Of a stretch of 44,799 bases of DNA, positions 4,623 to 38,736 are shown piece after piece. The stretch lies in NCBI GenBank assembly GCA_017532085.1, contig JAFXJT010000049.1, positions 1-44,799 on the forward strand. Direction: 5' to 3'. The position numbers and the translations under genes are program-made. The stretch is from Oscillospiraceae bacterium. GTDB lineage: Bacteria; Bacillota; Clostridia; Oscillospirales; Ruminococcaceae. The notes under the pieces are model-generated. The model was not told the origin of the DNA, made no database searches, and saw nothing but the letters and a program-made list of their open reading frames with translations. The first letter of the stretch is position 1. The number at the start of each line of letters is the position of its first letter.

Positions 4623-7490
4623 TTACTGGGGACCCAGCTCACCCAGAGTAAGGAGACCAGCCAGATACTGCAGAATAGCAGTACTGTCATCGGAATCGAT
4701 CTTACCGGTGTATGCACAGTCAGCATTCAGAACGCCCTGTGGAGTAACATTAATGGTAGTATCTTCAGCAACGTAACGGTTCAGCAGAACAACGTCATCA
4801 ATCTTAACAACGCCATCGCAGTTAACGTCGCCGTAGAGGCTAGCCTCGGGATCATCACCAGGATCAGTGCCGGGAGTAGGAGGATCGATCTCGCCATTTG
4901 CCTCGTCCTCCATGAAGCTCATAACCCATGCAAACGGAGAATTCCAGTTAATGGTAACCTCGTTTACAGACCAAGCCTCGATAGAGTCAACATAGCAGAG
5001 CTGAGAAGCAACCTTGCCGCGAACATAACCTGCACCAGCAACATAGGGATCCTGCATACCAGCATTCGGGCCACCGGACATAACGCCGGCAGGAGCATAC
5101 GGGAACTCAGAATCGAGCTCATGGCTCCAGAATCTGTGGTGAGGATTGATGCAGTGGTAAGTACCGTAACCGGTAATATAGGAGAAGTCCATAGCGTTAC
5201 GGCCAAAGATGTAGTCCATAGCCTCAGAAACGCCATTCAAGTACTTTGCATCGCCGGTAGCGCTGTAAGCGTAAGCCATAACGATTGCATTGTTAACTAC
5301 CATGGAGTTGGAACCCCACTCATAGCCTTCAACAACAACGCCAGGTCCGAGGTTAACCGGATCTTCAAATGCAGTGCCCTGGTAAGGAATACCGAAGCCC
5401 TGCTCTGCTTCCTTCGCAACATAAGCGTCAGCAGCAGCAACGATGGAATCAGCAATAGCATCAGCCTTGGAAGCAACCTTATCAGCGTTCAGGTACAGGG
5501 ACAGGGTGCCCAGACCAGCAGTGTTACCCCAGTTGAAAGAGGTGAAGGAACCGCTGTTCTCACCGCCATCGAGGCTGTAAACCAACTGATAAGCTTCCTT
5601 GTAGGACTCAAGATCAGTCAGGTACTTGGAATCGCCGGTGGTGATGTACAGCTCGCAAGCTGCCCAGTAGAAGTCATCAGCTACATTGTTATCACCGTAA
5701 GCGCCGCCGCCGATTGCCTGATCCAAAGGAGCATACAGCTCAGGATTTGCCTTTGCAGCTGCATAGGTTCTCTCTGCCATTTCAAGACATTCTTTAGCGT
5801 AAGCAGCATCATACTCTTCCCACAGACGAGCAGCCTGTGCAGCAGATGCAGCAACGTTCAGAGTAGCAGCAGTGGACGGAGGCTTCACAATACGAGTGAT
5901 ACCAGCCCAGTCCTTGCTATCCATATAGTCCCAAGCATGAACGGCAAGACCGGTCCACTTGGAGTCATGCAGCTTATGGAATACCATGTCAGTGTACTGC
6001 TTGGTATCCTTACCGCCGCACATAGTGGTATCATACTTCATGGAATAGGTGGAAGGAACCAGCATATCGAAGAACCAATCCAGCTCAACCTTAGTCTCGT
6101 CGAGGATATCAGGAGCGCCGTTGCCTGCTTCAGGAACTACGACAACACCGGACTTGTCAGCGAACTTATCGGCAGAGGTGTTATTGTTCTCGTTGAGAGA
6201 CCACTCATACATATTCTGGAGAGTCCAAACAGCGATACCGCCGTTAACAACGTACTTACCGTGGTCACCGGCATCATACCAGCCGCCGGTAGCGGTGATC
6301 TGACCGTTAGATTTCTGAACGTCGGAACCGTCGTTCTTGTAAGCCTTGATCCAAGCATTCTGGATGTAAGCAGTATCAGGATTGTGACCTGCCTTATCAG
6401 CCAGGATTTCCTTAGAATCGTTCTCACCGGTAGAAGTGATGTATGCAGCATCCTTTGCAATACCGGAACGGTTCTGATAGAAATAGTTGACTGCATCGGT
6501 CAGAACGCCGTCATAAATGTCGTCACCGATCACGAAATCATAAGAATCACGAGTGGTGCCGCTGGTTGCGAAGTAATAAGTACCGGGGGTTGTGAACTCG
6601 GAGAAATCAAATACTGCAGTGTAGAAACCGGAATCCTTATCCAGTTTGCTGCCGCCTACAGCAGTGCCGGAGTAAACTTCCTTACCGCTCTTAGCATCGA
6701 TAATGGAAACCTTCTGACCATTGAAGCTGGAAGTAGCATGGTAGGTTGCCTTCTTGTTCAGATTGGTGTAATAACCAACCTGGTTTCCGTGCACGCCATA
6801 CTCAGGTGCTTCTGCCGGAGGCGTATAGTCATCATCGTCTCTGGTCTCGTTCACGAGGCTCATGTTATCGAACTTCAGAGTTGCGCCATTGGGCATACAG
6901 TCGGTAGACTGGTGCTCACCTGCGCCGCCGAAGTGGAATGCCCACTCAGCAACTTCCATGTCCTTGGTGGAAGTAAAGGTAGAGTCAATGATCAGAGTCT
7001 GATTTGCAGTAACAGGAATCGGATCCCAAGTGGAATTGAATTCGCTGCTGAATCTGCCCTGATTATCGCCCATACCGTTGTGCCAGATTTCTACGTTACC
7101 GCTCAGGTCACCAATCTTGGTGTAGATAGAGCCGGTAGCATCAGCAGTAATCTCAGCCTTTACGGTGTAAACGTCACCGGAACGGAGTCTGAGCTTTCTG
7201 TGACGGAACTGAGCATCCCAACGAGATGCACCGCCAACATCAATACCGCCGTTTTCAACGATCTCGATGTTGTAAGTACCGCCGCTGATAGAGAAATTGA
7301 GCTGTGCAGGCTGCGTGACGCAGGTATACCAAGGCAAGCCAACGCCATCGTCAAAGTCAGTCATACCAAGCAGCTCGCCGGCAGATGCGGTCATAGCCAT
7401 GCCCGGTAAGACAGCGATAGAAGCGCTTGCCAGCATAGTTGCTGTCACAATGCCGCTTGCTACGCGTTTGCCGAATGATTTTTTCAGCAT
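4623..7490 (-). CDS. Cellulosomal endoglucanase: CBM4 - Ig-like - GH9 - dockerin
   Basis: 955 residues from the ATG at 7490 (MLKKSFGKRV), preceded by GGGAGG; an in-frame ATG at 7538 lies before this ribosome site. A signal peptide (~1-38, ending TASAG) is followed by a CBM4/9-like beta-sandwich (~42-214), an Ig-like CelD_N domain (~231-321), the GH9 catalytic domain (~329-856), a Pro/Gly/Asp linker (PPTPGTDPGDDPE) and a type-I dockerin (~887-952). GH9 landmarks are GGWYDAGDHGKY (catalytic Asp, ~403-414), INPHHRFW (~782-789) and NEVTINWNSP with the acid Glu at ~844. The enzyme should hydrolyse beta-1,4-glucan by inversion and attach to a scaffoldin cohesin. The first dockerin repeat (DVNCDG) is canonical; the second (DCAYTG) has lost some calcium ligands. 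It is monocistronic. Confidence 0.95.
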   Translation of the reverse strand: MLKKSFGKRVASGIVTATMLASASIAVLPGMAMTASAGELLGMTDFDDGVGLPWYTCVTQPAQLNFSISGGTYNIEIVENGGIDVGGASRWDAQFRHRKLRLRSGDVYTVKAEITADATGSIYTKIGDLSGNVEIWHNGMGDNQGRFSSEFNSTWDPIPVTANQTLIIDSTFTSTKDMEVAEWAFHFGGAGEHQSTDCMPNGATLKFDNMSLVNETRDDDDYTPPAEAPEYGVHGNQVGYYTNLNKKATYHATSSFNGQKVSIIDAKSGKEVYSGTAVGGSKLDKDSGFYTAVFDFSEFTTPGTYYFATSGTTRDSYDFVIGDDIYDGVLTDAVNYFYQNRSGIAKDAAYITSTGENDSKEILADKAGHNPDTAYIQNAWIKAYKNDGSDVQKSNGQITATGGWYDAGDHGKYVVNGGIAVWTLQNMYEWSLNENNNTSADKFADKSGVVVVPEAGNGAPDILDETKVELDWFFDMLVPSTYSMKYDTTMCGGKDTKQYTDMVFHKLHDSKWTGLAVHAWDYMDSKDWAGITRIVKPPSTAATLNVAASAAQAARLWEEYDAAYAKECLEMAERTYAAAKANPELYAPLDQAIGGGAYGDNNVADDFYWAACELYITTGDSKYLTDLESYKEAYQLVYSLDGGENSGSFTSFNWGNTAGLGTLSLYLNADKVASKADAIADSIVAAADAYVAKEAEQGFGIPYQGTAFEDPVNLGPGVVVEGYEWGSNSMVVNNAIVMAYAYSATGDAKYLNGVSEAMDYIFGRNAMDFSYITGYGTYHCINPHHRFWSHELDSEFPYAPAGVMSGGPNAGMQDPYVAGAGYVRGKVASQLCYVDSIEAWSVNEVTINWNSPFAWVMSFMEDEANGEIDPPTPGTDPGDDPEASLYGDVNCDGVVKIDDVVLLNRYVAEDTTINVTPQGVLNADCAYTGKIDSDDSTAILQYLAGLLTLGELGPQ

Positions 7491-7620
7491 GTGTAAATAC
7501 CCTCCCATTTTTTGTTTATATAACCGAAGCCAGTACAAGCTTCAAATTATACCGAAAGATAACGTACAGCGTACCGCATGATATCCCACTTAGTCGTTTT
7601 CAGACGAAAAAGCACGTATG

Positions 7621-24075: not shown

Positions 24076-25275
24076 ATGAATCGCTTTGATTTAATTACGC
24101 CGGAAGGCACCAGAGATGCACTCTTTACTGAATGCACCCTGCGTCGTGAGGTGGAGGCCCGTTTGCGTCATTTGTTTGTCGCAAGAGGATACAGCGAAAT
24201 CATCACACCGACACTGGAATTCTATGATGTATTCAATCGTGATGCAAGACCCTTCCCGCAAGAAAAAATGTATAAGCTCACCGATAATAAAGGCAGATTA
24301 CTGGTATTGCGTCCCGATAATACCGTACCGATTGCCCGTGTATGTGCCACTCGTCTGCGGGATGCGGCACTTCCGCTGCGCTTATACTATAACCAGAGCA
24401 TTCATATCAGTTCTCCCTCCTTGAAGGGCAGAGATGATGAAGTCACACAATCGGGTATCGAACTGATTGGTTCCGATTCCCGTATGGCGGATTTAGAGGT
24501 CATTGCAGCTGCTGTGGATGTTCTGGCATCCTGTGATACGGAATACCGTCTGGAGCTTGGCAATGCTGCATTTTTCCGCGAGCTGACGGATCAGCTGACC
24601 GTTTCCAAGCAGCTCAAGGAAAGCATCCGTGATTATGTAGAGGATAAAAACTTCCCGGCTCTCGGAGATTTGCTGGATACACTGCCTGCATCGCCCATTA
24701 CCGAAGCACTGCGTATGCTGCCTCGGCTGTTCGGCGGTGAAGAGGTCTTTGACAAGGCGGCAACGCTTTGTCCCGGTGAACGCTTTGCTGCAACTTTGGA
24801 TTCTTTGAAGAGTCTTTGGCAGACGGTAACGCAGATTGCCGGCAAAGAACGTGTCACAGTGGATCTGAGCATGGTACATCGCACCGATTATTATACCGGT
24901 ATGATTCTGCGCGGCTATCTTTCCGGCTATGGTGAAGAAATCCTTTCCGGCGGTCGCTATGATAAACTGATCTCGGAATTCGGTTATGATGTCCCGGCAA
25001 CCGGCTTTGCAGTCAATGTGGATGCGCTGGTTAAGGTGCTCTCAAAACAAAATGCCGCCGATCCTGCCGCAAGACCGGTCAGCGATGTACTGATCTGGGC
25101 TGCAGCTGGTTTGGAGGCCAATGCCATTGCAGCTGCCGAAACGCTCAGAGCCAAAGGCCTTGTCACAGAGCATTCTCTCTGTGAGACCCTCGCCGAAGCA
25201 CAGGCATATGCCAGAGCACAGGGCATTCAGAACGTATTTCCCATTACCGATGCAGAAACGGAGGACAACGCATGA
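24076..25275 (+). CDS. hisZ: ATP phosphoribosyltransferase regulatory subunit HisZ
   Basis: 399 residues from the ATG at 24076 after GAAAGGG. HisZ is a catalytically dead histidyl-tRNA synthetase homologue that complements the short HisG. The class II synthetase fold is seen in LITPEGTRDALFTECTLRRE, PTLEFYDVFNR, MYKLTDNKGRLLVLRPDNTV and QSGIELIGSDSRMADLEVIA, with YTGMILRGYLSGYGEEILSG (~274-293) near the end; the lack of the C-terminal anticodon domain and the position directly before a short hisG decide for HisZ over HisS. It overlaps hisG by four bases (ATGA). Confidence 0.95.
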   Translation: MNRFDLITPEGTRDALFTECTLRREVEARLRHLFVARGYSEIITPTLEFYDVFNRDARPFPQEKMYKLTDNKGRLLVLRPDNTVPIARVCATRLRDAALPLRLYYNQSIHISSPSLKGRDDEVTQSGIELIGSDSRMADLEVIAAAVDVLASCDTEYRLELGNAAFFRELTDQLTVSKQLKESIRDYVEDKNFPALGDLLDTLPASPITEALRMLPRLFGGEEVFDKAATLCPGERFAATLDSLKSLWQTVTQIAGKERVTVDLSMVHRTDYYTGMILRGYLSGYGEEILSGGRYDKLISEFGYDVPATGFAVNVDALVKVLSKQNAADPAARPVSDVLIWAAAGLEANAIAAAETLRAKGLVTEHSLCETLAEAQAYARAQGIQNVFPITDAETEDNA

Positions 25276-25919
25276 GCCGTCCATTGAGAATTGCTCTGAC
25301 CAAGGGCAGACTGGAAAAGGATACGCTGGGCTTGTTGGAAAGTCTTGGCTATGATTGTGAAATGGTACGCAATAAGGGTCGCCGTCTGATTCTGCCTATT
25401 CCCAACGGCAATATGGAGGTTGTTCTTGCGAAAGCCGCCGATGTCATTACCTATGTCGAGCATGGCGTTTGTGATCTGGGTGTGGTGGGTAAGGATACCA
25501 TCATGGAAATGCAAGGAAAATTCTATGAATTGCTGGATCTGGGTTTTGGCAGATGCAAATTTGCGCTTGCTGTCAAAAAAGGCACCGATTTCTATAACGG
25601 TTTTTCTGTTAAGACGATTGCAACCAAATATCCCAATGTAGCCAGAGCGTTTTTCGAAAGCAAAGGCATGGATATCGATGTGGTGAAGATCGAAGGCTCT
25701 GTGGAGCTGGCACCTCTTCTGGAACTGTCCGACGGTATTGTGGATATCGTGGAAACCGGTACCACACTGAAGGAAAACGGTCTGGAGGTCTACGAGGATG
25801 TTTGCAAGATCTCTGCCAGATTGATTGCCAATACCGTCAGCATGAAACTGCGGCAAACAGAAATTGAAATGCTGACCACCAATATTGAACGATATTTTGC
25901 CGAGCATTCCCATAACTGA
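25272..25919 (+). CDS. hisG: ATP phosphoribosyltransferase, short catalytic subunit
   Basis: 215 residues; the ATG at 25272 overlaps the hisZ stop. HisG joins PRPP and ATP, the first histidine step. Motifs: LRIALTKGRLEKD (~4-16), DVITYVEHGVCDLGVVGKD (~57-75), the PRPP loop region in GIVDIVETGTTLKENGLEV (~154-172). It ends without the ACT-like domain of the long form, so histidine feedback must come through HisZ. Confidence 0.96.
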   Translation: MSRPLRIALTKGRLEKDTLGLLESLGYDCEMVRNKGRRLILPIPNGNMEVVLAKAADVITYVEHGVCDLGVVGKDTIMEMQGKFYELLDLGFGRCKFALAVKKGTDFYNGFSVKTIATKYPNVARAFFESKGMDIDVVKIEGSVELAPLLELSDGIVDIVETGTTLKENGLEVYEDVCKISARLIANTVSMKLRQTEIEMLTTNIERYFAEHSHN

Positions 25920-25957
25920 TCTCCCGGATGCCCGACAAGCCTACAGATTTCTATTAC

Positions 25958-25999
25958 GAAAGGAGGTAGGTTTCCATTTTACCGGAAACCAAATCCATC
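25958..25999 (+). promoter_or_regulatory. Shine-Dalgarno with hairpin spacer before hisD
   Basis: GAAAGGAGG (25958-25966) is followed by a perfect 7-bp hairpin, GGTTTCC (25969-25975) and GGAAACC (25984-25990), then nine bases to the ATG at 26000. The linear gap is 33 bases; folded it is about 11. An in-frame ATT at 25976 lies nine bases after GGAGG and is a possible rare start. Confidence 0.6.
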
Positions 26000-27283
26000 A
26001 TGCAGATTATTCGCTGTAACGGAACCGATGAGCTCCGCTTTTTAGATACCTTACGCAGCCGCAGCACCGCTCCTGATCCTGCTGTGGTCAATGCTGTGAC
26101 CGATATTCTGGAAAATGTACGTCAGAACGGCGATGCCGCTGTACGTGCTTATACCGAAAAATTTGACGGCAAATGCCCCGAAACCTTCGAGGTCGATGCC
26201 GATACCATTGCCGATGCACTGGAAAACGCAGAGCCTGCATTTGTGGATGCCTTGCTCAACGCCATCGAAAACATTGCCGATTTCCACAACCGACAGAAAG
26301 AACAAGGCTTTGTCAATACGCGCGATGACGGCGTGATGCTGGGTCAGAGACTGCGTGGTCTTGCTCGTGTGGGATTGTATGTCCCCGGTGGTACTGCTGC
26401 CTATCCTTCCAGTGTATTGATGAACGCCATTCCCGCAAAGATCGCCGGTGTAGGTGAACTGATCATGGTAACGCCTCCCGGCAAGGACGGCAAACCCAAT
26501 CCCGATATTCTGGTGGCTGCTTCGCTGTGCGGTGTGGATCGTGTGTTCCTGATGGGTGGTGCACAGGCTGTGGCAGCACTCGCCTATGGCACGGAATCCA
26601 TTCCTCGTGTGGATAAAATTGTAGGTCCCGGCAATATATATGTTGCAACGGCAAAGCGGCTGCTTTACGGCGTTGTGGATATTGATATGGCAGCGGGTCC
26701 CAGCGAGATTCTGGTGATGGCAGATGATTCCGCCGATCCGAAATTCGTAGCAGCGGATCTGATGTCCCAGGCCGAACACGATGTGTTGGCTTCTTCGATT
26801 CTCGTTACCACCAGTGATCGTATTGCAAAGGAAACCTGTGCCGAAATCGAACGCCAGCTTCAGTATCTCTCTCGTGCAGAGATTATTCGGAAATCTCTTG
26901 CCGATTACGGCGCAATCCTCATCTGCGACAGCAATGCACAGGCTGTGGCACTTGCCAATGAGATCGCTCCCGAACACCTGGAGGTGCTCATGGAAAATCC
27001 GTTGGAATATATCGGTAAGCTGGATAATGCCGGCTCTGTGTTCTTAGGTGCCTATGCATCTGAGCCTCTGGGAGATTACTATGCAGGACCGAACCATGTT
27101 CTGCCTACCTCCGGCACAGCAAGATTCTTCTCGCCCTTATCGGTATACAGCTTTGTCAAGCGTTCCAGCTATATTTACTACACGGAAGAAGCACTTCGTT
27201 GTGCAAAGGATGATATCCTATGCATTGCCAATAAAGAGGGTCTGACTGCTCATGCCAATGCAGTTGCCGTGCGTTTTGAGTAA
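26000..27283 (+). CDS. hisD: Histidinol dehydrogenase
   Basis: 427 residues from the ATG at 26000 (MQIIRCNGTDEL), matching the usual HisD N-terminus. It oxidises histidinol to histidine in two NAD+ steps using zinc. Landmarks: RVGLYVPGGTAAYPSSVLMN (~119-138), GGAQAVAALAYGTESIPRVD (~181-200), the HisD signature VDIDMAAGPSEILVMADD (~226-243), AEHDVLASS (zinc His, ~257-265) and EIAPEHLEVL. The ribosome site lies unusually far upstream with a hairpin between. Confidence 0.97.
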   Translation: MQIIRCNGTDELRFLDTLRSRSTAPDPAVVNAVTDILENVRQNGDAAVRAYTEKFDGKCPETFEVDADTIADALENAEPAFVDALLNAIENIADFHNRQKEQGFVNTRDDGVMLGQRLRGLARVGLYVPGGTAAYPSSVLMNAIPAKIAGVGELIMVTPPGKDGKPNPDILVAASLCGVDRVFLMGGAQAVAALAYGTESIPRVDKIVGPGNIYVATAKRLLYGVVDIDMAAGPSEILVMADDSADPKFVAADLMSQAEHDVLASSILVTTSDRIAKETCAEIERQLQYLSRAEIIRKSLADYGAILICDSNAQAVALANEIAPEHLEVLMENPLEYIGKLDNAGSVFLGAYASEPLGDYYAGPNHVLPTSGTARFFSPLSVYSFVKRSSYIYYTEEALRCAKDDILCIANKEGLTAHANAVAVRFE

Positions 27284-27307
27284 GCCCTAAGGAAGGATGC
27301 TGAAACT

Positions 27308-28363
27308 ATGTTGCAATTACCCGAAAAACTGACTGCACTCAAGCCCTATGACCCCATCACGGGCAGCTATACTGTGCGCTTGGATGCCAATGAATCCTAT
27401 TTTGATCTTCCCTTGGTGCTGAAAGCAAAAATCGCTGATCGCATTGAGGAAATTGATTTTAACCGCTATCCTGATCCACTGGCTGCTCCTGCCATCGAAG
27501 CCTTTGCTTCCTATTACAATGTGCCCGTAGATTGTGTCACTGCAGGAAACGGCTCCGATGAGCTGATTTCTATCCTGACCAGCTGCTTTTTGCAAGCAGG
27601 CAGCAAAATTGTAACGCTTTCTCATGATTTTTCCATGTATCGCTTCTATGCCTCATTGTATGAAGTGGAAACCATTACCGTGCAAAAGAACGATCATCTG
27701 CAAATCGATGTAGATACATTGATTGCTGCCTGTCAGAATGCAGATGCCGTAATCTTCTCCAATCCCTGCAACCCCACTTCTCTGGGACTGCCCCGCAATG
27801 AGATCAAGCGATTGCTGGATGCGGTATCCTGCCTTGTGATTCTGGATGAAGCGTATATGGATTTCTGGGATCAATCCGTCATGGATTGGGTCAATGCATA
27901 TGATCATCTGATCATTCTGCGCACCTGCTCCAAAGCAGTAGGACTTGCTGCCGCACGCATGGGTTTTGCTGTAACAAATCCGAGAATGACCGGTTTGCTG
28001 CGTGCAGCCAAATCTCCCTATAACTGCGATGCCATCAGCCAGACCATTGCTGCCACCGTATTGAACGAAAAGGAACTGCTGCAGCATTGCCGGGATGAGA
28101 TCATTGTGCAAACACAACGTCTGTACACCGCTATCTCCGCTCTGGTCAAGCGGTATCCGGCATTGCTGGAAACCGTTTATGCTCCCCGTACAAATTTTGT
28201 ATTTATCAAAACGGCCTATGCCCAAGAGATTCATCAGGCATTACTGGAACAAGGGATTGCTGTCCGCTGCTTCCCAAATGGTCTGCGGATCTGCTGCGGT
28301 ACACGCCGTGAGCATACATTGCTGCTGAATGCGCTGGAGAACATCCTTCAGCCAAAAGATTGA
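27308..28363 (+). CDS. hisC: Histidinol-phosphate aminotransferase
   Basis: 351 residues from the ATG at 27308 after AAGGAAGG. A fold-type I PLP enzyme converting imidazole acetol phosphate and glutamate to histidinol phosphate. Visible motifs: [13 protein letters not shown] (~24-36), NGSDELISI (~81-89), FSNPCNPTS (~150-158), LDEAYMDF (~179-186) and the PLP-lysine segment [17 protein letters not shown] with Lys near 209. Length is typical. Confidence 0.96.
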
Positions 28364-28382
28364 TGCCAAGGAGGTGCTTTTG

Positions 28383-28970
28383 ATGATGAGATCTGCAACC
28401 ATTACACGAAATACCAAAGAAACACAGATCACCATTTCTCTTTCCATGGATGGCAAAGGCAACAGTGCAATTGCAACCGGTATCGGTTTCTTTGATCATA
28501 TGCTGACCGCCCTTGCACGACACAGCGGAATCAGTCTGGAAATCCGTACTGTGGGTGATCTGCATGTGGATGCACATCATACCGTTGAAGATACCGGTAT
28601 CGTATTGGGTCAGGCTCTTGCAGAGGCGCTGGGAGATAAATCCGGCATTGCACGTTATGGCAGTGCTTACATTCCCATGGATGAAGCCCTCTCCTTCTGC
28701 GCATTGGATCTGTCCAATCGTCCGTATCTGGTCTTTCAGGGCTGCTTTACCAATGCCATGATCGGCAGCTATGATGCTCGTCTGACCGAAGAGTTCTTCC
28801 GTGCCGTAGCAGTGAATGCCGGCATGACCTTGCATCTGAATATGCTGTATGGCAGCAACGATCATCATAAGTGTGAAGCGCTCTTCAAGGCATTTGCCCA
28901 TGCACTCAAGGCTGCGATCCGCGAAAATGAGGATGGCAGTGTCTTATCCACCAAAGGAGTGTTATCATGA
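28383..28970 (+). CDS. hisB: Imidazoleglycerol-phosphate dehydratase
   Basis: 195 residues from the ATG at 28383 (another ATG follows directly) after AAGGAGG. A monofunctional HisB without the phosphatase domain. Metal-binding histidine motifs are present: [17 protein letters not shown] (~39-55), [10 protein letters not shown]-type [15 protein letters not shown] (~63-77), and [17 protein letters not shown] (~159-175). It overlaps hisH by four bases (ATGA). The separate histidinol-phosphate phosphatase needed by the pathway is not in this window. Confidence 0.97.
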
Positions 28971-29572
28971 TTGCTGTCATTGATTACGGCGCCGGTAACC
29001 TGTTCAGCGTCTGCAATGCACTGAATTATCTGGGAATGGCGCATAAGCTTACCAAGAATCCTGCAGATCTGCAGGCTGCCGATGGAATCATCCTGCCGGG
29101 AGTAGGCGCTTTTCCTGCCGGAATGCAAATGCTGGAGGAAAGCGGTCTGACAGAGGTGATCCGCACTGAATCCAAGAAAAAGCCGCTGCTGGGCATCTGC
29201 CTCGGCATGCAGATGCTGCTGGAGAAAAGTGATGAGGTTGCCCCCTGCAAAGGACTGGGTCTCATCCGTGGTGAAGTCCACAAGATTCCTTCTCAGCGTG
29301 TCATCATTCCCCATATGGGTTGGAATGAGCTGGTAATTACACAACAGAATTGTCCTCTGCTGCACGGCATCGAAGCACCGATATATACCTATTTTGTCCA
29401 CTCCTATCAAGCCTTCTGCGATGATCACAATATCATTGCCTATGCTGATTACGATGGAAAAATCCCCGCTTTGATCACCGATGGCGGTTATGTTTACGGC
29501 GCACAGTTCCATCCCGAAAAATCCGGTGAACAGGGACTGCAGATGCTGCGCAATTTCGGAGGGATGCTCTAA
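28967..29572 (+). CDS. hisH: Imidazole glycerol phosphate synthase, glutaminase subunit
   Basis: 201 residues. A class I glutamine amidotransferase that feeds ammonia to HisF. The triad is visible: nucleophile Cys in [13 protein letters not shown] (~75-87) and His/Glu in [12 protein letters not shown] (~181-192); the start [14 protein letters not shown] is diagnostic. Its stop overlaps the hisA start by one base (TAATG), indicating tight coupling. Confidence 0.97.
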
Positions 29573-30735
29573 TGTTTATTTTACCTGCGATCGATATCCA
29601 CAAAGGTCAGTGTGTCAGACTGTATCAAGGAGATTATGCAACCGCTTCCAAGGTAGCAGAGGATCCGCTGGAAACCGCAAAAACATTTGAGGCTAACGGC
29701 GCAACATGGATCCATATGGTAGATCTTGACGGTGCAAAAGCAGGATATCCTGTGAACACTGAAATCTATAAGAATATTGCTCAGAATACCAACCTCAAAG
29801 TTGAGGTTGGCGGCGGCATTCGTACATTGGAAACCATTGGGGCGTATCTTGATCTTGGGATTGCACGTGTCATTCTGGGCTCGGTTGCACTGAAAAATCC
29901 AAAACTAGTTGCCGATGCCATCAAGGAATTCGGCAGCGAAAAAATCGTGGTAGGCATTGATGCCAAAAACGAAATGGTAGCCACCGAAGGCTGGCTGGAA
30001 ACTTCCGATGTACACTACATTGATCTGGCAAAAGAAATGATCGCCGTTGGCGTGCGGTATTTTATTTTCACCGATATCTCCAAAGACGGTACGCTTTCGG
30101 GCGTGAATGCGCATCAGCTGGAAGCTTTGGCAAAAGCCACTGCAGGACAATGCAGCATCATTGCAAGCGGCGGCGTACACACCATAGAGGATATCATCAC
30201 TTGTAAACAATTGGGTCTTTACGGCACGATTTGCGGCAAGTCCATCTACCAAGGCACCTTGGATCTTGCTGAGGCAATTCAGACAGCAGAAACACTGCAA
30301 ATCCGCCCGATGCAGATCGAAGATTATCCGGCACTGTATGCGCTCTGGGTTTCCTGCGGCAATGGTCTGAACAATCTGGATGATTCCGAAGAAGGCGTTG
30401 CAAAATATCTCAAACGCAATCCAACCACTTCCTTTGTCGCAGAAGAACACGGTCAACTGATCGGCGCTGTGCTTGCGGGACATGACGGCAGACGCGGCTA
30501 TATCCAGCATATGGCAGTGTCCGAATCCTGCAGACGAAGAGGAATCGGCAGCAAGCTGGTTGCAGTATGTCTGGATGCAATGCGAAAAGAGGGTATCCAT
30601 AAAGTCGCACTGGTCGCATTCAAGCGGAATCAGCTCGGAAATGCGTTTTGGGAACAGCAGGGCTTTACAGTGCGTGAAGATCTCAACTATCGGAATCTTG
30701 CACTTTCCGATATGATCCGATACGATCCCGAATGA
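29572..30735 (+). CDS. hisA: HisA isomerase fused to a C-terminal GNAT acetyltransferase domain
   Basis: 387 residues, about 145 longer than usual HisA. Residues 1-~240 are a full (beta/alpha)8 HisA: PAIDIHKGQCVRLYQGD with catalytic-region Asp8, GGGIRTLE (~80-87), VGIDAKN (~127-133), FTDISKDGTLSG with Asp168, and ASGGVHTIEDI (~198-208). After GKSIYQGTLDLAEAIQTAE the frame continues without a stop into a GNAT fold: LQIRPMQIEDYPALYALW (~242-259), FVAEEHGQLIGAVLAGHDG (~288-306), YIQHMAVSESCRRRGIGSKL with the acetyl-CoA loop RRRGIG (~321-326), and ALVAFKRNQLGNAFWEQQGF. HisA isomerises ProFAR to PRFAR; the acyl target of the GNAT part is unknown. No frameshift or internal ribosome site was seen at the junction. 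hisF follows after 19 bases. Confidence 0.95.
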   Translation: MFILPAIDIHKGQCVRLYQGDYATASKVAEDPLETAKTFEANGATWIHMVDLDGAKAGYPVNTEIYKNIAQNTNLKVEVGGGIRTLETIGAYLDLGIARVILGSVALKNPKLVADAIKEFGSEKIVVGIDAKNEMVATEGWLETSDVHYIDLAKEMIAVGVRYFIFTDISKDGTLSGVNAHQLEALAKATAGQCSIIASGGVHTIEDIITCKQLGLYGTICGKSIYQGTLDLAEAIQTAETLQIRPMQIEDYPALYALWVSCGNGLNNLDDSEEGVAKYLKRNPTTSFVAEEHGQLIGAVLAGHDGRRGYIQHMAVSESCRRRGIGSKLVAVCLDAMRKEGIHKVALVAFKRNQLGNAFWEQQGFTVREDLNYRNLALSDMIRYDPE

Positions 30736-30754
30736 TAGATAAAGGAGTAGCAAT

Positions 30755-31510
30755 ATGCTTGCAAAAAGAATTATCCCTTGTCTGGATGTACGCCACGGAA
30801 AAGTCGTTAAGGGCGTGAATTTTGAGGGCGTAAAGGATGTTGGGGATCCCATTGCCTGCGCTGCGGAATACAACCGTCAAGGTGCCGATGAGCTGGTATT
30901 CTATGATATCGTTGCCTCGCACGAAGGCAGAGGCGTTTTTCTCGATGTCGTGCGGGAAACCGCAAAGCAGGTGTTTATCCCGCTGACAGTAGGCGGCGGA
31001 ATTGCTTCGGTTTCCGATATGCGGGATACTCTGCGTGCCGGCGCCGATAAAATCAGCATCAATTCTTCTGCTGTGAAAAATCCTGCGCTGATATCCGAAG
31101 GAGCCGAGCTGTTCGGTTCCCAGTGTATTGTCGTTGGCATTGATGCCAAGCGCGACGGAAAAGGCGGCTATACTGTTTTTGTCAATGGCGGCAGAATCGA
31201 TATGTACATCGACCTGATCGAATGGGTACGAGAGATTCAGGCTAGAGGTGCAGGTGAGATCTGCCTGAACTCGATTGATACCGATGGTGTCCGCGGCGGT
31301 TTTGATCTGGAAATGTTGCAGGCTGTGTGTGCCAATGTAACCATTCCGGTCATTGCAAGCGGCGGTGCCGGAAAGCTTTCTGATTTTGCTACGGCATTTC
31401 AGAAAACCAATGCCACTGCTGCATTGGCTGCTTCCCTGTTCCACTTCGGCGAACTGACCGTGGCACAGGTAAAAGAGGACTGCCGCAGCAAAGGAATCAT
31501 AGTAAGATAA
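30755..31510 (+). CDS. hisF: Imidazole glycerol phosphate synthase, cyclase subunit
   Basis: 251 residues from the ATG at 30755 after AAAGGAG. A (beta/alpha)8 barrel that pairs with HisH to produce IGP and AICAR. Motifs: [20 protein letters not shown] (~4-23; catalytic Asp in CLDV), [38 protein letters not shown] with the second catalytic Asp (~171-185) and [13 protein letters not shown]. Last gene of the hisZ-F unit, closed by a terminator at once after the stop. Confidence 0.97.
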
Positions 31511-31511
31511 C

Positions 31512-31538
31512 AAAAAGCCCGTACCAACGGGCTTTTTT
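31512..31538 (+). terminator. Rho-independent terminator of the hisZ-F operon
   Basis: AAAAAGCCCGT and ACGGGCTTTTTT form a strong stem with an ACCA loop and T run. It separates the his operon from the MATE gene. Confidence 0.95.
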
Positions 31539-31565
31539 CTGCGTCTATGCATGAGATGCGGCAAA

Positions 31566-31595
31566 TTGCATACACTATGCAAAGCTGTATATTAT
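31566..31595 (+). promoter_or_regulatory. MATE gene promoter with inverted repeat over the -35
   Basis: A candidate -35 TTGCAT (31566-31571) and -10 TATTAT (31590-31595) lie 18 bases apart. The -35 forms the left arm of a perfect 7-bp inverted repeat TTGCATA-CAC-TATGCAA (31566-31582). A repressor or activator bound there would directly control entry of RNA polymerase. Confidence 0.55.
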
Positions 31596-31621
31596 GCTTT
31601 CCCACCTCAAGGAGGAACGTA

Positions 31622-33025
31622 ATGAAACGACAATCCGGCGCATGGCAGTTTTATAAACGCACACTGCTCATCGCCATTCCCATTACCATACAGAATCTCA
31701 TTACCAATTTTGTGGCGCTGATTGATAACATCATGGTAGGACAAGTCGGCACGGAAGAAATGTCCGGCGTTGCCATTGTCAATCAGATCTTGTTCGTATT
31801 TAATATTACCATCTTCGGTGTCATATCCGGTGCAGGAATTTTCTGTGCACAGTTCTTTGGCAAAGAAGACCATGAAGGTGTCCGATATACCTTCCGATTC
31901 AAACTGCAAAGTGCCTTATTGATCACAATACTCGGTATTCTGATCTTTTTGCTGCTGGGTGATCCGTTAATCACCATGTATCTGCATGATACGGAAAAAG
32001 GCATTGATCTGGAAAAAACCTTTTTCTTTGCAAAAGAATATCTTTCTATCATGCTTTGGGGGCTTGTTCCCTTTACGTTGGAGCAGATCTATGCCAGTAC
32101 ACTGCGGGAAGGCGGTATTGCAACACCCCCTATGGTAGCAGGCATTATTGCCGTGATCCTCAATACCGTGCTCAATTATCTGTTGATTTTTGGCATCGGA
32201 CCGTTTCCTGTATTGGGCGTAAAGGGTGCTGCCTATGCTACCATCTGCGCACGATTTGTACAAACCGCTATCGTAATCTTATGGGCACACACACATAAAA
32301 AGCGACTGCCCTTTATGGAAAAGCTCTATCCCTCTCTGTATATTCCCAAACAGCTGCGCAAACGGATTCTGGTCAAAGGACTGATTCCGCTGACCGCAAA
32401 TGAATGCTTGTGGTCAGCCGGTGTCGCAACACTGGTGCAGTGCTATTCCATCCGTGGTATTGATGTGGTAGCAGGACTGAATATTGCCAATACCGTGGTG
32501 AATCTGTTTAATGTCTTGTTTATCGCCTTTGGATCGGGTGTTTCTGTGGTCATCGGACAGCTGTTGGGCGCCAATGATCTGAAAAGTGCAAAATTTGCAG
32601 CGCCTCGTCTGATCTGGTTTTCAGGCGGAATGTGTATTGTTTTGGGTGCATTGATGGCCTGTTTTTCCGGCATATTCCCACAGGCCTACAATACCACTGA
32701 TGATGTTCGTTCGCTGGCAACTGCTTTTATTCTCATCAGTGCAATGCTTATGCCGATTCACGGAATTCTGCACTCCACCTATTTTACTCTGCGTTCCGGT
32801 GGAAAAACAGTCATCACCTTTTTATTCGACTGCGGCTTCTCATGGGGGATTATCGTACCGCTTGCCTATTGTCTGGCACACTTTACCTCATTGTCAATCC
32901 TTACGGTATATTTCTGCAGCCAAGGCATAGAGCTGATCAAATGCTTCATCGGCTTTGTCCTGATCAAAAAAGGAGTGTGGCTTTCCAATATCGTTTCCGC
33001 CCCCAATGAAGCAGTCACTCAGTAG
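31622..33025 (+). CDS. MATE family multidrug/metabolite exporter
   Basis: 467 residues from the ATG at 31622 (MKRQSGAWQFYKRTLL) after AAGGAGG; upstream in-frame ATGs lack a ribosome site. Twelve membrane segments in two halves are expected. Family features are the first-helix segment IPITIQNLITNFVALIDNIM followed by VGQVGTEEMSGVAIVNQ, and the second-half counterpart ANTVVNLFNVLFIAFGSGVS followed by IGQLLGAN. Such transporters expel cationic drugs or metabolites using Na+ or H+. The substrate is unknown. It interrupts the histidine genes but has its own promoter and terminator. Confidence 0.92.
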   Translation: MKRQSGAWQFYKRTLLIAIPITIQNLITNFVALIDNIMVGQVGTEEMSGVAIVNQILFVFNITIFGVISGAGIFCAQFFGKEDHEGVRYTFRFKLQSALLITILGILIFLLLGDPLITMYLHDTEKGIDLEKTFFFAKEYLSIMLWGLVPFTLEQIYASTLREGGIATPPMVAGIIAVILNTVLNYLLIFGIGPFPVLGVKGAAYATICARFVQTAIVILWAHTHKKRLPFMEKLYPSLYIPKQLRKRILVKGLIPLTANECLWSAGVATLVQCYSIRGIDVVAGLNIANTVVNLFNVLFIAFGSGVSVVIGQLLGANDLKSAKFAAPRLIWFSGGMCIVLGALMACFSGIFPQAYNTTDDVRSLATAFILISAMLMPIHGILHSTYFTLRSGGKTVITFLFDCGFSWGIIVPLAYCLAHFTSLSILTVYFCSQGIELIKCFIGFVLIKKGVWLSNIVSAPNEAVTQ

Positions 33026-33044
33026 GGATAACAGATATTAACAA

Positions 33045-33080
33045 CAATACGCTCATCGTTTCGATGTGCGTATTGTTTTT
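33045..33080 (+). terminator. Rho-independent terminator after the MATE gene
   Basis: CAATACGC-T-CATCG and CGATG-T-GCGTATTG pair with a TTT loop and one T/T mismatch, followed by a T run. It isolates the MATE gene from hisI. Confidence 0.93.
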
Positions 33081-33184
33081 GTCATGGAGGGGTCTCTTAG
33101 AGACAGGATCCGTATTCCGATGGAAAAGATAATCGGCATATCGCCGCATATCTGCTAAAATCCCATGGTTTCTATGGAAACCGC

Positions 33185-33213
33185 TTGCAAAAAAACAAGG
33201 GATATGCTATACT
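33185..33213 (+). promoter_or_regulatory. hisI-hisE promoter with candidate his operator
   Basis: TTGCAA (33185-33190) and TATACT (33208-33213) with a 17-base spacer. The -10 lies within TATGCTATACTGTAA (33203-33217), whose reverse complement matches the first hisZ repeat at 12 of 15 positions. Just upstream of the -35 is a perfect GGTTTC-TATG-GAAACC inverted repeat (33167-33182). Confidence 0.7.
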
Positions 33214-33255
33214 GTAAGGTGATGCAGTTTGAAAAAATTTACAAGGAGTATCATA

Positions 33256-33612
33256 ATGATTCAAATTGATCTGAACAACCTTGACCGTTTCTTTCAGAAA
33301 AGTGAGCTGATCCCCGCCATCTGCTACGAAGTGGATACCAAAACCGTGCTGATGCTCGCTTATATGAACAAAGAAAGCCTAAAGCGCACGCTTGAAACCG
33401 GCTATACTTGGTTCTGGAGCCGTTCCAGACAAGAATACTGGAACAAAGGTGCTACCAGCGGTCATCTGCAAAAAGTTGTTTCCATCTTTGCCGATTGCGA
33501 TGATGACACTTTGCTGGTCAATGTGAAGCAGACAGGTGTTGCCTGCCATACCGGCGAATACAGCTGCTTTTTTAAGGAACTCTATCATGATACAAAGGAG
33601 AATGCACAATGA
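33256..33612 (+). CDS. hisI: Phosphoribosyl-AMP cyclohydrolase
   Basis: 118 residues from the ATG at 33256 after ACAAGGAG; an in-frame upstream TTG has no ribosome site. It opens the purine ring of PR-AMP, the third histidine step. Motifs: [20 protein letters not shown] (~17-36), [18 protein letters not shown] (~48-65) and the metal site region [20 protein letters not shown] followed by HTGEYSCFF (~81-109). It is monofunctional and overlaps hisE by four bases. Confidence 0.96.
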
Positions 33613-33947
33613 CAGTTTATCAAGAAATCTTCGAGGTCATCAAAGCGCGTAAGGCCGCTTATCAAAACGGCACCTCTGAATCCAATTCCTATACCTGTTA
33701 TCTGTTCGAGAAGGGCGTGGATAAAATCTGCAAAAAGGTCGGAGAAGAAGCTTCCGAAACCATTATCGCTGCCAAAAATAACGATCCGGATGAGCTGGCA
33801 AACGAAATCAACGATCTGATCTATCATCTGATGGTGCTTGCCGCCGACCGAGGTCTGGAGTGGAGTAAAGTAGAAGAAATTCTCAATGCACGCAATGAGA
33901 AGATCGGAAATCTGAAAACCTTCCATCAGGTGGATAAGAATACCTGA
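33609..33947 (+). CDS. hisE: Phosphoribosyl-ATP pyrophosphatase
   Basis: 112 residues; the ATG at 33609 overlaps the hisI stop (ATGA). HisE removes pyrophosphate from PR-ATP, the second histidine step. The all-alpha MazG-like metal-binding pattern is seen in [20 protein letters not shown] (~37-56) and [20 protein letters not shown] (~60-79). Together with hisI it completes the early pathway absent from the hisZ-F unit. Confidence 0.95.
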
Positions 33948-36889: not shown

Positions 36890-37017
36890 GCTGCACGCTA
36901 GCCAAAATAGAAAAAACATTAGCGTGGGGGATCCGTTTTCTTGACTGCATCTCACATTCCGGCAGATCCTGCAAGGAAATGCAGATTGATTTTTTGTTTG
37001 ATTTGGAGGTTATCACT

Positions 37018-38736
37018 ATGCGACATCTGAAAAAACTGTTTGCGCTCTCTGTTGCGATGCTGAGCATTGCAACGGCACATCCGCTTTCCACCATTGCAGC
37101 GGTTACGAATGCATCGGCACATCACCTTGCAGATGCACTGACCAAGCAAGGTGAAATGACCATGGAGGATGACTATAATGGCGATCGTGTCGTCAACGGT
37201 ATTGATCTGACTCTGCTCAAGCGTGCACTGCTGCAGGAGGAAGAATCCGGCGAGGTCACAGATCAAACCATCAAAGATATTGCCGGCTCCTGCAAGCTGA
37301 TTGGCAGAACACTTGACAAAAATGATGTAACATGGCTGGTGCAAAGCGGTTCGGCTGTGGAATGCACTGTAACCGGCACCAAAGCAAGCGTCACAATCGC
37401 AGGGGATGGTAATGTTTATTCCGATGCCAAATATCGTCCACGCTACGCTGTTTATGTGGATGACGAACTGCTCACCGATGTGGTGATGGGTGAGCCGGAA
37501 CAGACTGTCCAACTATTCTCCGGCACTGCCAATCGTACCGCAACGGTAAAGATTATCCATCTCTCCGAAGCGAATAACGGTGCTGTGGGTGTAAAGCAGT
37601 TCGATATTACCTCCGGCGCTTCCAGACCTGTAAAGCCAACTGCCAAAAAAGATCTTTCCATTGAATTTATCGGCGATTCCATCACCTGTGCTTACGGTGT
37701 CGAGGCAGATTCACAGTATGTTTCCTTCGAGACAGGCACCGAAAACTTCACGATGTCCTATGCATATCTCACCGCCGGATTGCTGAATGCCGATTACAGT
37801 GCCGTCTCATACAGCGGTCATGGTATTATCTCCGGCTATACCAATGACGGCAGCATCAACACCGATTCCCTTGTGCCGGATTTCTACACCGTTGTCGGCA
37901 AGCCTGCCGATTATCAGACCGAATGGGATTTTAATGCCAATCCCAACGATGTTGTTGTCATCAATCTGGGTACCAACGATAATACCTATCTCTCTAAGGA
38001 CTATGAGGGCCGAGGGCCATCCTTTACCGAAGCTTATGTGGATTTTCTCACCCTGATCCGTGAAAAGAATCCCGATGCCCATATCATCTGTACGGTCGGT
38101 ACAATGGGCTGTGCAGAAGTATATCCTTACATCGAAGAGGCCGTTGCCGCTTTCGGTGATGCCAAGGTCAGCAGTTATCTCTGCGCAACACAGGATATGA
38201 CCAACGATGGCCTTGGCGCCGATTGGCATCCTTCTCCTGTGACACATCAGAAGAGTGCCTATGTATTGGCTGACAAGATCGCAGATGCTTTGGGAATCCC
38301 GTGGGATGAAATTGGTCTGGATGCCGCTTCCGATCGTACCTATGAAGTCACTAACGATACAGCAGCAGGCGTATATGTTTCCTCTTATGTCAATACGTAT
38401 GATAATTCACTCAATGTCGGCATAACGACCGGCGGCGATACCCCCGAAGCAGTACAAGCCTTTGTTTCCGGCTTGTCACTGATCAAAGGAGAATATGAAT
38501 TAAAGCTTACCTGCAATGTGAATACCACCACCGAAGTCCCCTATCGTCTGCGCAGTCTTGCAGATCCCGATGTGATCTATCTGGAGGGCACTCTGGATTG
38601 CTCCGGCGGTGCCGTTACAATCCAGAAAACCATTGCTATGACCGGCGCAGATGAATGTGAATTCGTTTTTGATCTGGGCGGAAAAGATTCCTATCAGTTT
38701 AATATCACTGCTATGACAATGTTTAAAATCTCATAA
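37018..38736 (+). CDS. Secreted CE2-type SGNH esterase with a single dockerin-like repeat
   Basis: 572 residues from the ATG at 37018 after TTTGGAGG. A signal peptide (~1-28) is followed by one calcium-binding dockerin-type repeat (DDYNGDRVVNGIDLTLLKRA, ~51-70), a jelly-roll domain (~90-205) and an SGNH hydrolase domain (~212-430) with FIGDSITCAYG (Ser221), INLGTNDN (~315-322) and ADWHPSP (His404). This jelly-roll plus SGNH order is that of carbohydrate esterase family 2, which deacetylates plant glucans, mannans or xylans. A further beta-sandwich (~440-572) closes the protein. Only half a dockerin is present, so cohesin binding is uncertain. The 128-base gap before it contains a CACGCTA/TAGCGTG inverted repeat (36894-36926) but no clear promoter. 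Confidence 0.88.
   Translation: MRHLKKLFALSVAMLSIATAHPLSTIAAVTNASAHHLADALTKQGEMTMEDDYNGDRVVNGIDLTLLKRALLQEEESGEVTDQTIKDIAGSCKLIGRTLDKNDVTWLVQSGSAVECTVTGTKASVTIAGDGNVYSDAKYRPRYAVYVDDELLTDVVMGEPEQTVQLFSGTANRTATVKIIHLSEANNGAVGVKQFDITSGASRPVKPTAKKDLSIEFIGDSITCAYGVEADSQYVSFETGTENFTMSYAYLTAGLLNADYSAVSYSGHGIISGYTNDGSINTDSLVPDFYTVVGKPADYQTEWDFNANPNDVVVINLGTNDNTYLSKDYEGRGPSFTEAYVDFLTLIREKNPDAHIICTVGTMGCAEVYPYIEEAVAAFGDAKVSSYLCATQDMTNDGLGADWHPSPVTHQKSAYVLADKIADALGIPWDEIGLDAASDRTYEVTNDTAAGVYVSSYVNTYDNSLNVGITTGGDTPEAVQAFVSGLSLIKGEYELKLTCNVNTTTEVPYRLRSLADPDVIYLEGTLDCSGGAVTIQKTIAMTGADECEFVFDLGGKDSYQFNITAMTMFKIS

Follow-up and report, generated by a model that had tools for sequence, protein, structure and literature searches.

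A HisA-GNAT fusion conserved within a genus of Ruminococcaceae carries an acetyltransferase domain related to those of arginine operons

Results

A his cluster encodes HisA joined in frame to an acetyltransferase domain

The window, a 44,799-nucleotide stretch forming positions 1 to 44,799 of contig JAFXJT010000049.1 (Oscillospiraceae bacterium, assembly GCA_017532085.1), contains a histidine biosynthesis cluster with the gene order hisZ-G-D-C-B-H-(hisA-GNAT)-F-[MATE transporter]-I-E (Table 1). The hisH stop codon overlaps the start of hisA-GNAT by 1 base. Between hisF and hisI sits a gene for a MATE-family efflux transporter (TIGR00797, 31619-33025). We noticed no histidinol-phosphatase gene among the frames examined within the cluster (24076-33947), and no T-box or other Rfam element reached its gathering score within the window. 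Two long secreted-looking proteins are encoded farther out, at 4623-7538 (-) and 36979-38736 (+); we take them to resemble a family-9 glycoside hydrolase and a GDSL esterase with dockerin-like repeats.

Table 1. Genes and protein features of the his cluster, in positions of the window
Feature	Position	Strand	Remarks
hisZ (ATP-PRT regulatory subunit)	24076..25275	+	TIGR00443 above cut-off
hisG	25272..25919	+	TIGR00070 above cut-off
hisD	26000..27283	+	TIGR00069 above cut-off
hisC-like aminotransferase	27308..28363	+	TIGR01141 7.9e-75, 251.9 bits, below cut-off 276.55
hisB	28383..28970	+	NF002111 above cut-off; start chosen by eye
hisH	28967..29572	+	TIGR01855 above cut-off
hisA-GNAT fusion gene	29572..30735	+	387 aa, ATG to TGA; stop codon 30733-30735
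HisA (ProFAR isomerase) domain, residues 1-238	29572..30285	+	TIGR00007 269.9 bits, cut-off 228.95
Junction, residues 239-244	30286..30303	+	no inserted linker of variable length
GNAT acetyltransferase domain, residues 242-387	30295..30732	+	PF00583 1.3e-17
DGRRG motif, residues 305-309	30484..30498	+	each residue in at least 90% of 97 aligned GNAT rows
Acetyl-CoA loop RRRGIG, residues 321-326	30532..30549	+	sequence motif
hisF	30755..31510	+	TIGR00735 above cut-off
hisI	33256..33612	+	NF000768 above cut-off; start chosen by eye
hisE	33609..33947	+	TIGR03188 above cut-off

The original prediction, that one frame encodes HisA joined to a complete GNAT domain with an intact acetyl-CoA loop, is borne out. 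Within this single open frame, Pfam His_biosynth matches residues 3-230 (E = 1.8e-79) and Acetyltransf_1 matches residues 256-365 with 64.5 bits against a gathering score of 20.7. The protein passes the HisA equivalog model TIGR00007; a PriA-type bifunctional HisA/TrpF was also considered and rejected, the fusion scoring 163.4 bits against the TIGR01919 cut-off of 306.45. Membership of the GNAT superfamily follows from the PF00583 score together with the motif [RQ]xxGx[GA], present here as RRRGIG. No kinase domain was found among the Pfam matches of the fusion.

Residues D8, D130, T167 and D168 of the HisA half, which we take to be the catalytic ones from earlier HisA work, are invariant in all 24 fused proteins described below, as are R321, R322, G324 and I325 of the acetyl-CoA loop. 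Both domains are presumably active. The DGRRG motif is a possible acceptor-substrate site.

The fusion is conserved in the genus, with selection on both halves

Of 30 genomes in the genus, the source genome among them, 24 carry the fusion; hisA was found in 28. Each of the 24 gives one stop-free match, colinear with residues 1-385 or 1-387 at 73-100% identity. Four genomes (G012, G020, G021 and G024) encode HisA alone, with 242-244 residues, and neither G025 nor G026 (75% and 58% complete) has a HisA match. Conservation across species, which the original prediction named as support for a functional unit, is thus observed, and the case in which relatives keep two separate genes and this assembly alone is fused, which it had allowed for, is not what the genus shows.

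The distance between the end of the HisA motif QGT[LI][DN]L and the GNAT motif [IL]RxM is 11 residues in all 24 fused proteins, and the join is presumably rigid. Five fused contigs from named genomes (L108-L111 and L129) are metagenome assemblies, which would be expected if the fusion were an artefact of assembly or annotation; given a junction of the same length in 24 genomes, we regard such an artefact as extremely improbable and are nearly certain that the fusion is real and conserved. The five contigs are recorded as Oscillospiraceae or Ruminococcus, three of them from goat omasum or sheep rumen, and by length they correspond to contigs of G009, G002, G013, G014 and G003, adding no further species.

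On average, pairs of fused proteins are 86% identical in HisA and 74% identical in the GNAT domain. In either half dN/dS is 0.04-0.19, estimated from seven pairs that share genomes and in which dS is partly near saturation. Selection acts on both halves of the fusion.

A distribution wider than the genus was considered and rejected: among the matches listed for 294 further genomes from the order and 397 further genomes from the phylum, no full-length fusion was present; the two samples partly overlap, and HisA joined to some unrelated GNAT could escape this search. A separate internal start for the GNAT domain was likewise rejected. Start-like codons within residues 226-256 are preceded by no Shine-Dalgarno-like string in 22 of 24 fused genes, the exceptions being L007 (AGGA) and L024 (GGAGG), so the GNAT domain is probably made only within the fusion.

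Gain and loss of the fusion within the genus

Three changes of the 'fused' state are required on a HisH+HisA+HisF tree. One of the unfused genomes, G021, is nested among fused species and retains a decayed GNAT remnant between hisA and hisF (L066:5311-5460); because of this position and this remnant, G021 probably lost its fused GNAT domain secondarily. The basal fork of the genus comprises G024, the pair G012-G020, the window's own pair G000-G005 and the rest, in an order that the tree does not separate, and the tree fits both loss and original absence of the fusion in G012, G020 and G024. These three genomes carry a free-standing GNAT elsewhere, at 48-57% identity, which falls outside the fused clade on the GNAT trees, for G024 also on the 89-row tree described below. 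In the unfused G020, the interval from hisA to hisF contains a small frame that does not match the GNAT (L069:8975-9245).

The nearest free-standing relatives adjoin arginine biosynthesis genes

Free-standing relatives of the GNAT domain were drawn from the family and from named genomes, the named set being the best 80 of at least 573 confirmed loci (5 fused and 75 free-standing). When neighbouring proteins were clustered, ArgH and ArgG emerged as the commonest neighbours. Taking as context any gene on the same strand within 3 kb, with other frames sometimes intervening, arginine genes lie near the GNAT in 41 of the 75 best free-standing loci: argG and argH in 26, argC and argJ in 10, argG only in four and argH only in one. 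One further locus has hisF and hisI, and the remaining 33, some at contig ends, have no arg or his neighbour. Gene calls at these loci were made naively, and the arginine genes were checked against NCBIfam models at L166 and L128 (argG/argH of L128).

Within the family, 25 of 28 loci with 1.5-kb flanks (L034-L061) have no arg or his neighbour and three have one. Eleven longer stretches, which share G186 and G048 with the short loci, give eight with neither, two with arginine genes and one with histidine genes (G048). The two arginine contexts are argD-GNAT-argF in G186 and argB-argD-argF-GNAT in G070; GNAT also precedes argJ in G100 and lies just upstream of ArgJ in G126. G070 and G100 carry distantly related GNATs. 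The nearest relatives are thus strongly tied to arginine genes (41 of 75 of the best matches) and the more distant ones in the family only weakly, and the fused gene itself lies among his genes.

Relatives also occur in two further his clusters. In G048, a free-standing GNAT (L071:8932-9390) follows hisI, sharing 1 base with its end, and precedes hisE, and in a record named Ruminococcus flavefaciens RUG14191 another (L165:6001-6438) lies between hisF and hisI, in a cluster that contains several other inserted frames.

The fused domains share descent with arginine-operon GNATs

The fused domains group together as a single clade in an 89-row GNAT tree (support 100/92). Their sister clade, which joins them at a node supported by 100/98, comprises 21 rows, 13 of them in argG-GNAT context. 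These supports rest on 147 columns, and many forks are not separated. Rows were selected by hand: the first GNAT tree omitted six of the 24 fused rows and 26 of the 75 named free-standing loci, along with G070, L053 and family hits including G044 and G126, and for the 89-row tree eight more rows with long or odd branches were removed, including the free-standing GNATs of G012, G020 and G100. In the first tree, the long-branched GNAT of G100 had grouped inside the fused-argG clade. Of the 13 argG sister rows, 12 have 19-23 bases between the end of the GNAT match and the argH match.

A one-residue deletion, giving CxNG[LFM]N, is shared by 18 of 18 fused rows, 12 of 13 argG sister rows and 8 of 8 other sister rows. 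The thirteenth argG row, L137, reads SGNGLN at this site. None of the 58 remaining tree rows has the deletion, and five of those 58 match neither pattern. Furthermore, 69 of the 70 columns conserved in both the fused rows (90%) and the argG rows (80%) hold the same residue, and the specificity of the GNAT is therefore probably unchanged after its move to hisA. The fused GNAT and the arginine-operon GNATs share descent.

The GNATs of the other two his clusters, G048 and L165, branch outside the fused clade, so GNATs have seemingly entered his clusters more than once. Such repeated association would be expected if the GNAT acetylated a histidine-pathway compound or HisA itself. We consider this target improbable: his context was found in 1 and arg context in 41 of the 75 best free-standing relatives, the 69 of 70 jointly conserved residues are common to the argG rows, and the L165 cluster holds other inserted frames. 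Moreover, a free primary amine is absent from both the substrate and the product of HisA.

The GNAT might also have been retained merely through the joining of its frame to hisA, with any substrate and a link by expression alone. This fits the retention in G021 of hisA with only a GNAT remnant, and the lack of any arg or his neighbour at 33 of the 75 named loci and at 25 of the 28 short loci from the family. Against it stand the low dN/dS in both halves, the motifs conserved in 24 genomes and the shared descent with arginine-operon GNATs, and we judge it unlikely.

Arginine genes in the genus and in the sister clade

ArgJ is present in 27 of the 30 genus genomes, and argC is also found at 26 of these 27 ArgJ loci, with no GNAT match between argC and argJ. 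The two genes are separated by fewer than 100 bases in 22 loci and by 212-233 bases in four (G017, G007, G018 and G023); with a gap of at most 233 bases there is no room for a GNAT. The unfused G012, G020, G021 and G024 likewise have none at this position, and relatives such as R. flavefaciens (L166) retain a GNAT there. Classical ArgA (TIGR01890), which pairs a kinase-like domain with a NAT domain, scored above its cut-off in none of the 30 genus genomes.

Across 197 family genomes, ArgJ is above cut-off in 34 of 37 with the GNAT versus 105 of 160 others (Fisher p = 0.001, uncorrected for relatedness, with presence of the GNAT set at E below 1e-30, a threshold of our choosing). G038 and G057 have the GNAT without ArgJ, and G117 has it with a partial ArgJ match. 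Of the 21 sister-clade genomes, 20 were searched (L113 being omitted), and ArgB and ArgJ each exceed their cut-offs in 19 of these; the exception is G909 (L117), in which the GNAT occurs with no ArgJ and an ArgB match below cut-off.

Relation of the GNAT domain to characterised families

By sequence, the solved proteins nearest to the GNAT domain are PA4534 (5ib0), 4ubr and YpeA, all listed without a substrate. The best NCBIfam GNAT model is the YpeA equivalog NF002959, at 84.4 bits against a cut-off of 124, so that YpeA/PA4534-type GNATs (PDB 2pdo, 5ib0) are the nearest solved relatives but the fused domain falls short of their equivalog model. No chain named as an N-acetylglutamate synthase (NAGS) appears among 22 structure matches or among the best 60 of 61 matches, and no NAGS-named model appears among the best 25 of 46 NCBIfam matches of the fusion or among the GNAT-domain matches listed. 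The ArgH/NAGS model NF008964 was not matched by the GNAT domain at E 1e-5.

Discussion

We have described a protein in which HisA continues in frame into a GNAT acetyltransferase domain that descends in common with GNATs of arginine operons. On the function of this domain, the original prediction offered a histidine-pathway intermediate, a protein or an unrelated metabolite as targets; these options stand, and the evidence now favours a fourth, an arginine-pathway metabolite. Because the nearest GNAT relatives adjoin arginine biosynthesis genes, an arginine-pathway substrate, with glutamate first, is the most likely, and we are fairly confident that the fused GNAT is an arginine-pathway acetyltransferase. 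Glutamate itself is proposed from gene context, since sequence alone gives no placement in a characterised NAGS family, and we would put its chances as substrate at about even.

In the mechanism that we propose, residues 1-238 would act as HisA, in the fourth step of histidine synthesis, and residues 242-387 would transfer the acetyl group of acetyl-CoA to glutamate as a short NAGS, priming the ArgJ acetyl cycle. In an ancestor of most of the genus, a GNAT of the argG-GNAT-argH type would have landed behind hisA and the frames been joined, so that the acetyltransferase would now be expressed as part of the his operon and attached to HisA. The fusion is probably one protein taking part in two amino-acid pathways. 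That it comprises two working domains from these pathways, with the GNAT as a glutamate-acetylating short NAGS, is an evenly balanced proposition, and the benefit would presumably lie in co-expression or in stabilisation by the partner.

The main competing account keeps the GNAT in arginine metabolism and gives it a target other than glutamate, either another amine of the pathway or, for a regulatory acetylation, an arginine or histidine enzyme. The adjacency of the nearest relatives to arginine genes fits this account, no substrate is given for the nearest solved proteins, and a NAGS may be unneeded because ArgJ, present in 27 of 30 genus genomes, may itself be bifunctional and already make N-acetylglutamate. 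Two points weigh on the other side: a position adjacent or fused to argH is where short NAGS-like sequences are found in some other bacteria, as described in PMC1382215, and classical ArgA was above cut-off in 0 of 30 genomes. We hold a target other than glutamate to be a credible but distinctly less probable reading.

Several known systems resemble the fusion. In some bacteria, argH has a short NAGS-like gene as its neighbour or a domain of that kind as its fusion partner (PMC1382215), and ArgH(A)/H-NAGS of Moritella and Vibrio-like bacteria consists of argininosuccinate lyase with a C-terminal short NAGS (PMC1382215, PMC4490483). As portrayed in the accessible portions of these and a third paper, short NAGS domains exist alone and behind ArgH, and partner proteins have been proposed as their helpers (PMC1382215, PMC3827942, PMC4490483). 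Like ArgH(A), the fusion is an amino-acid pathway enzyme with a single C-terminal GNAT domain, but its partner, HisA, belongs to another pathway, and NF008964 is unmatched at E 1e-5. Short NAGS of the M. tuberculosis ArgA type (S-NAGS), in the parts of its description accessible in PMC3827942 and PMC4490483, resembles the fused domain in being a single GNAT domain of about 150 residues, and in the genus, too, ArgJ is present and classical ArgA is not above cut-off. It differs in that no chain so named is among the structure matches listed for the fused GNAT. ArgA2 of Bacteroidetes, a predicted N-succinylglutamate synthase in the accessible text of PMC9026213, is likewise a GNAT encoded within arginine operons; it comes from another phylum and has genetic data cited for it, and we liken the two by description and gene context. 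O-NAGS (ArgO), at 146 residues, is another NAGS form.

We found no HisA-GNAT fusion in the literature searched, from which subscription journals were mostly out of scope. Surveys of his fusions describe fusions among his genes, in their accessible text (PMC1963479, PMC10138114). The known examples, hisIE, hisNB, hisHF and hisIED, likewise join genes of the his operon; the accessible portions of the surveys describe no hisA-acetyltransferase fusion, and the word acetyltransferase does not occur in the main text of either.

A stronger coupling can be imagined, in which the HisH/HisF glutaminase would release glutamate next to the tethered GNAT and histidine flux or expression would set arginine priming through a HisA-tethered glutamate N-acetyltransferase beside HisH/HisF. 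We think this doubtful. The two further his-cluster GNATs (G048 and L165) make a real histidine-arginine link possible, and if the coupling were true, the fusion, hisI-GNAT-hisE and hisF-GNAT-hisI would be instances of one selected link between both pathways.

On the reading that we prefer, the fusion would physically link histidine and arginine synthesis in 24 of the 30 sampled genomes of the genus. The glutamate-acetylating step of arginine synthesis has surfaced repeatedly in new protein forms (PMC9026213, PMC3827942, PMC4490483), and a clostridial GNAT often found with arginine genes could fill the first step of arginine synthesis where classical ArgA is not seen.
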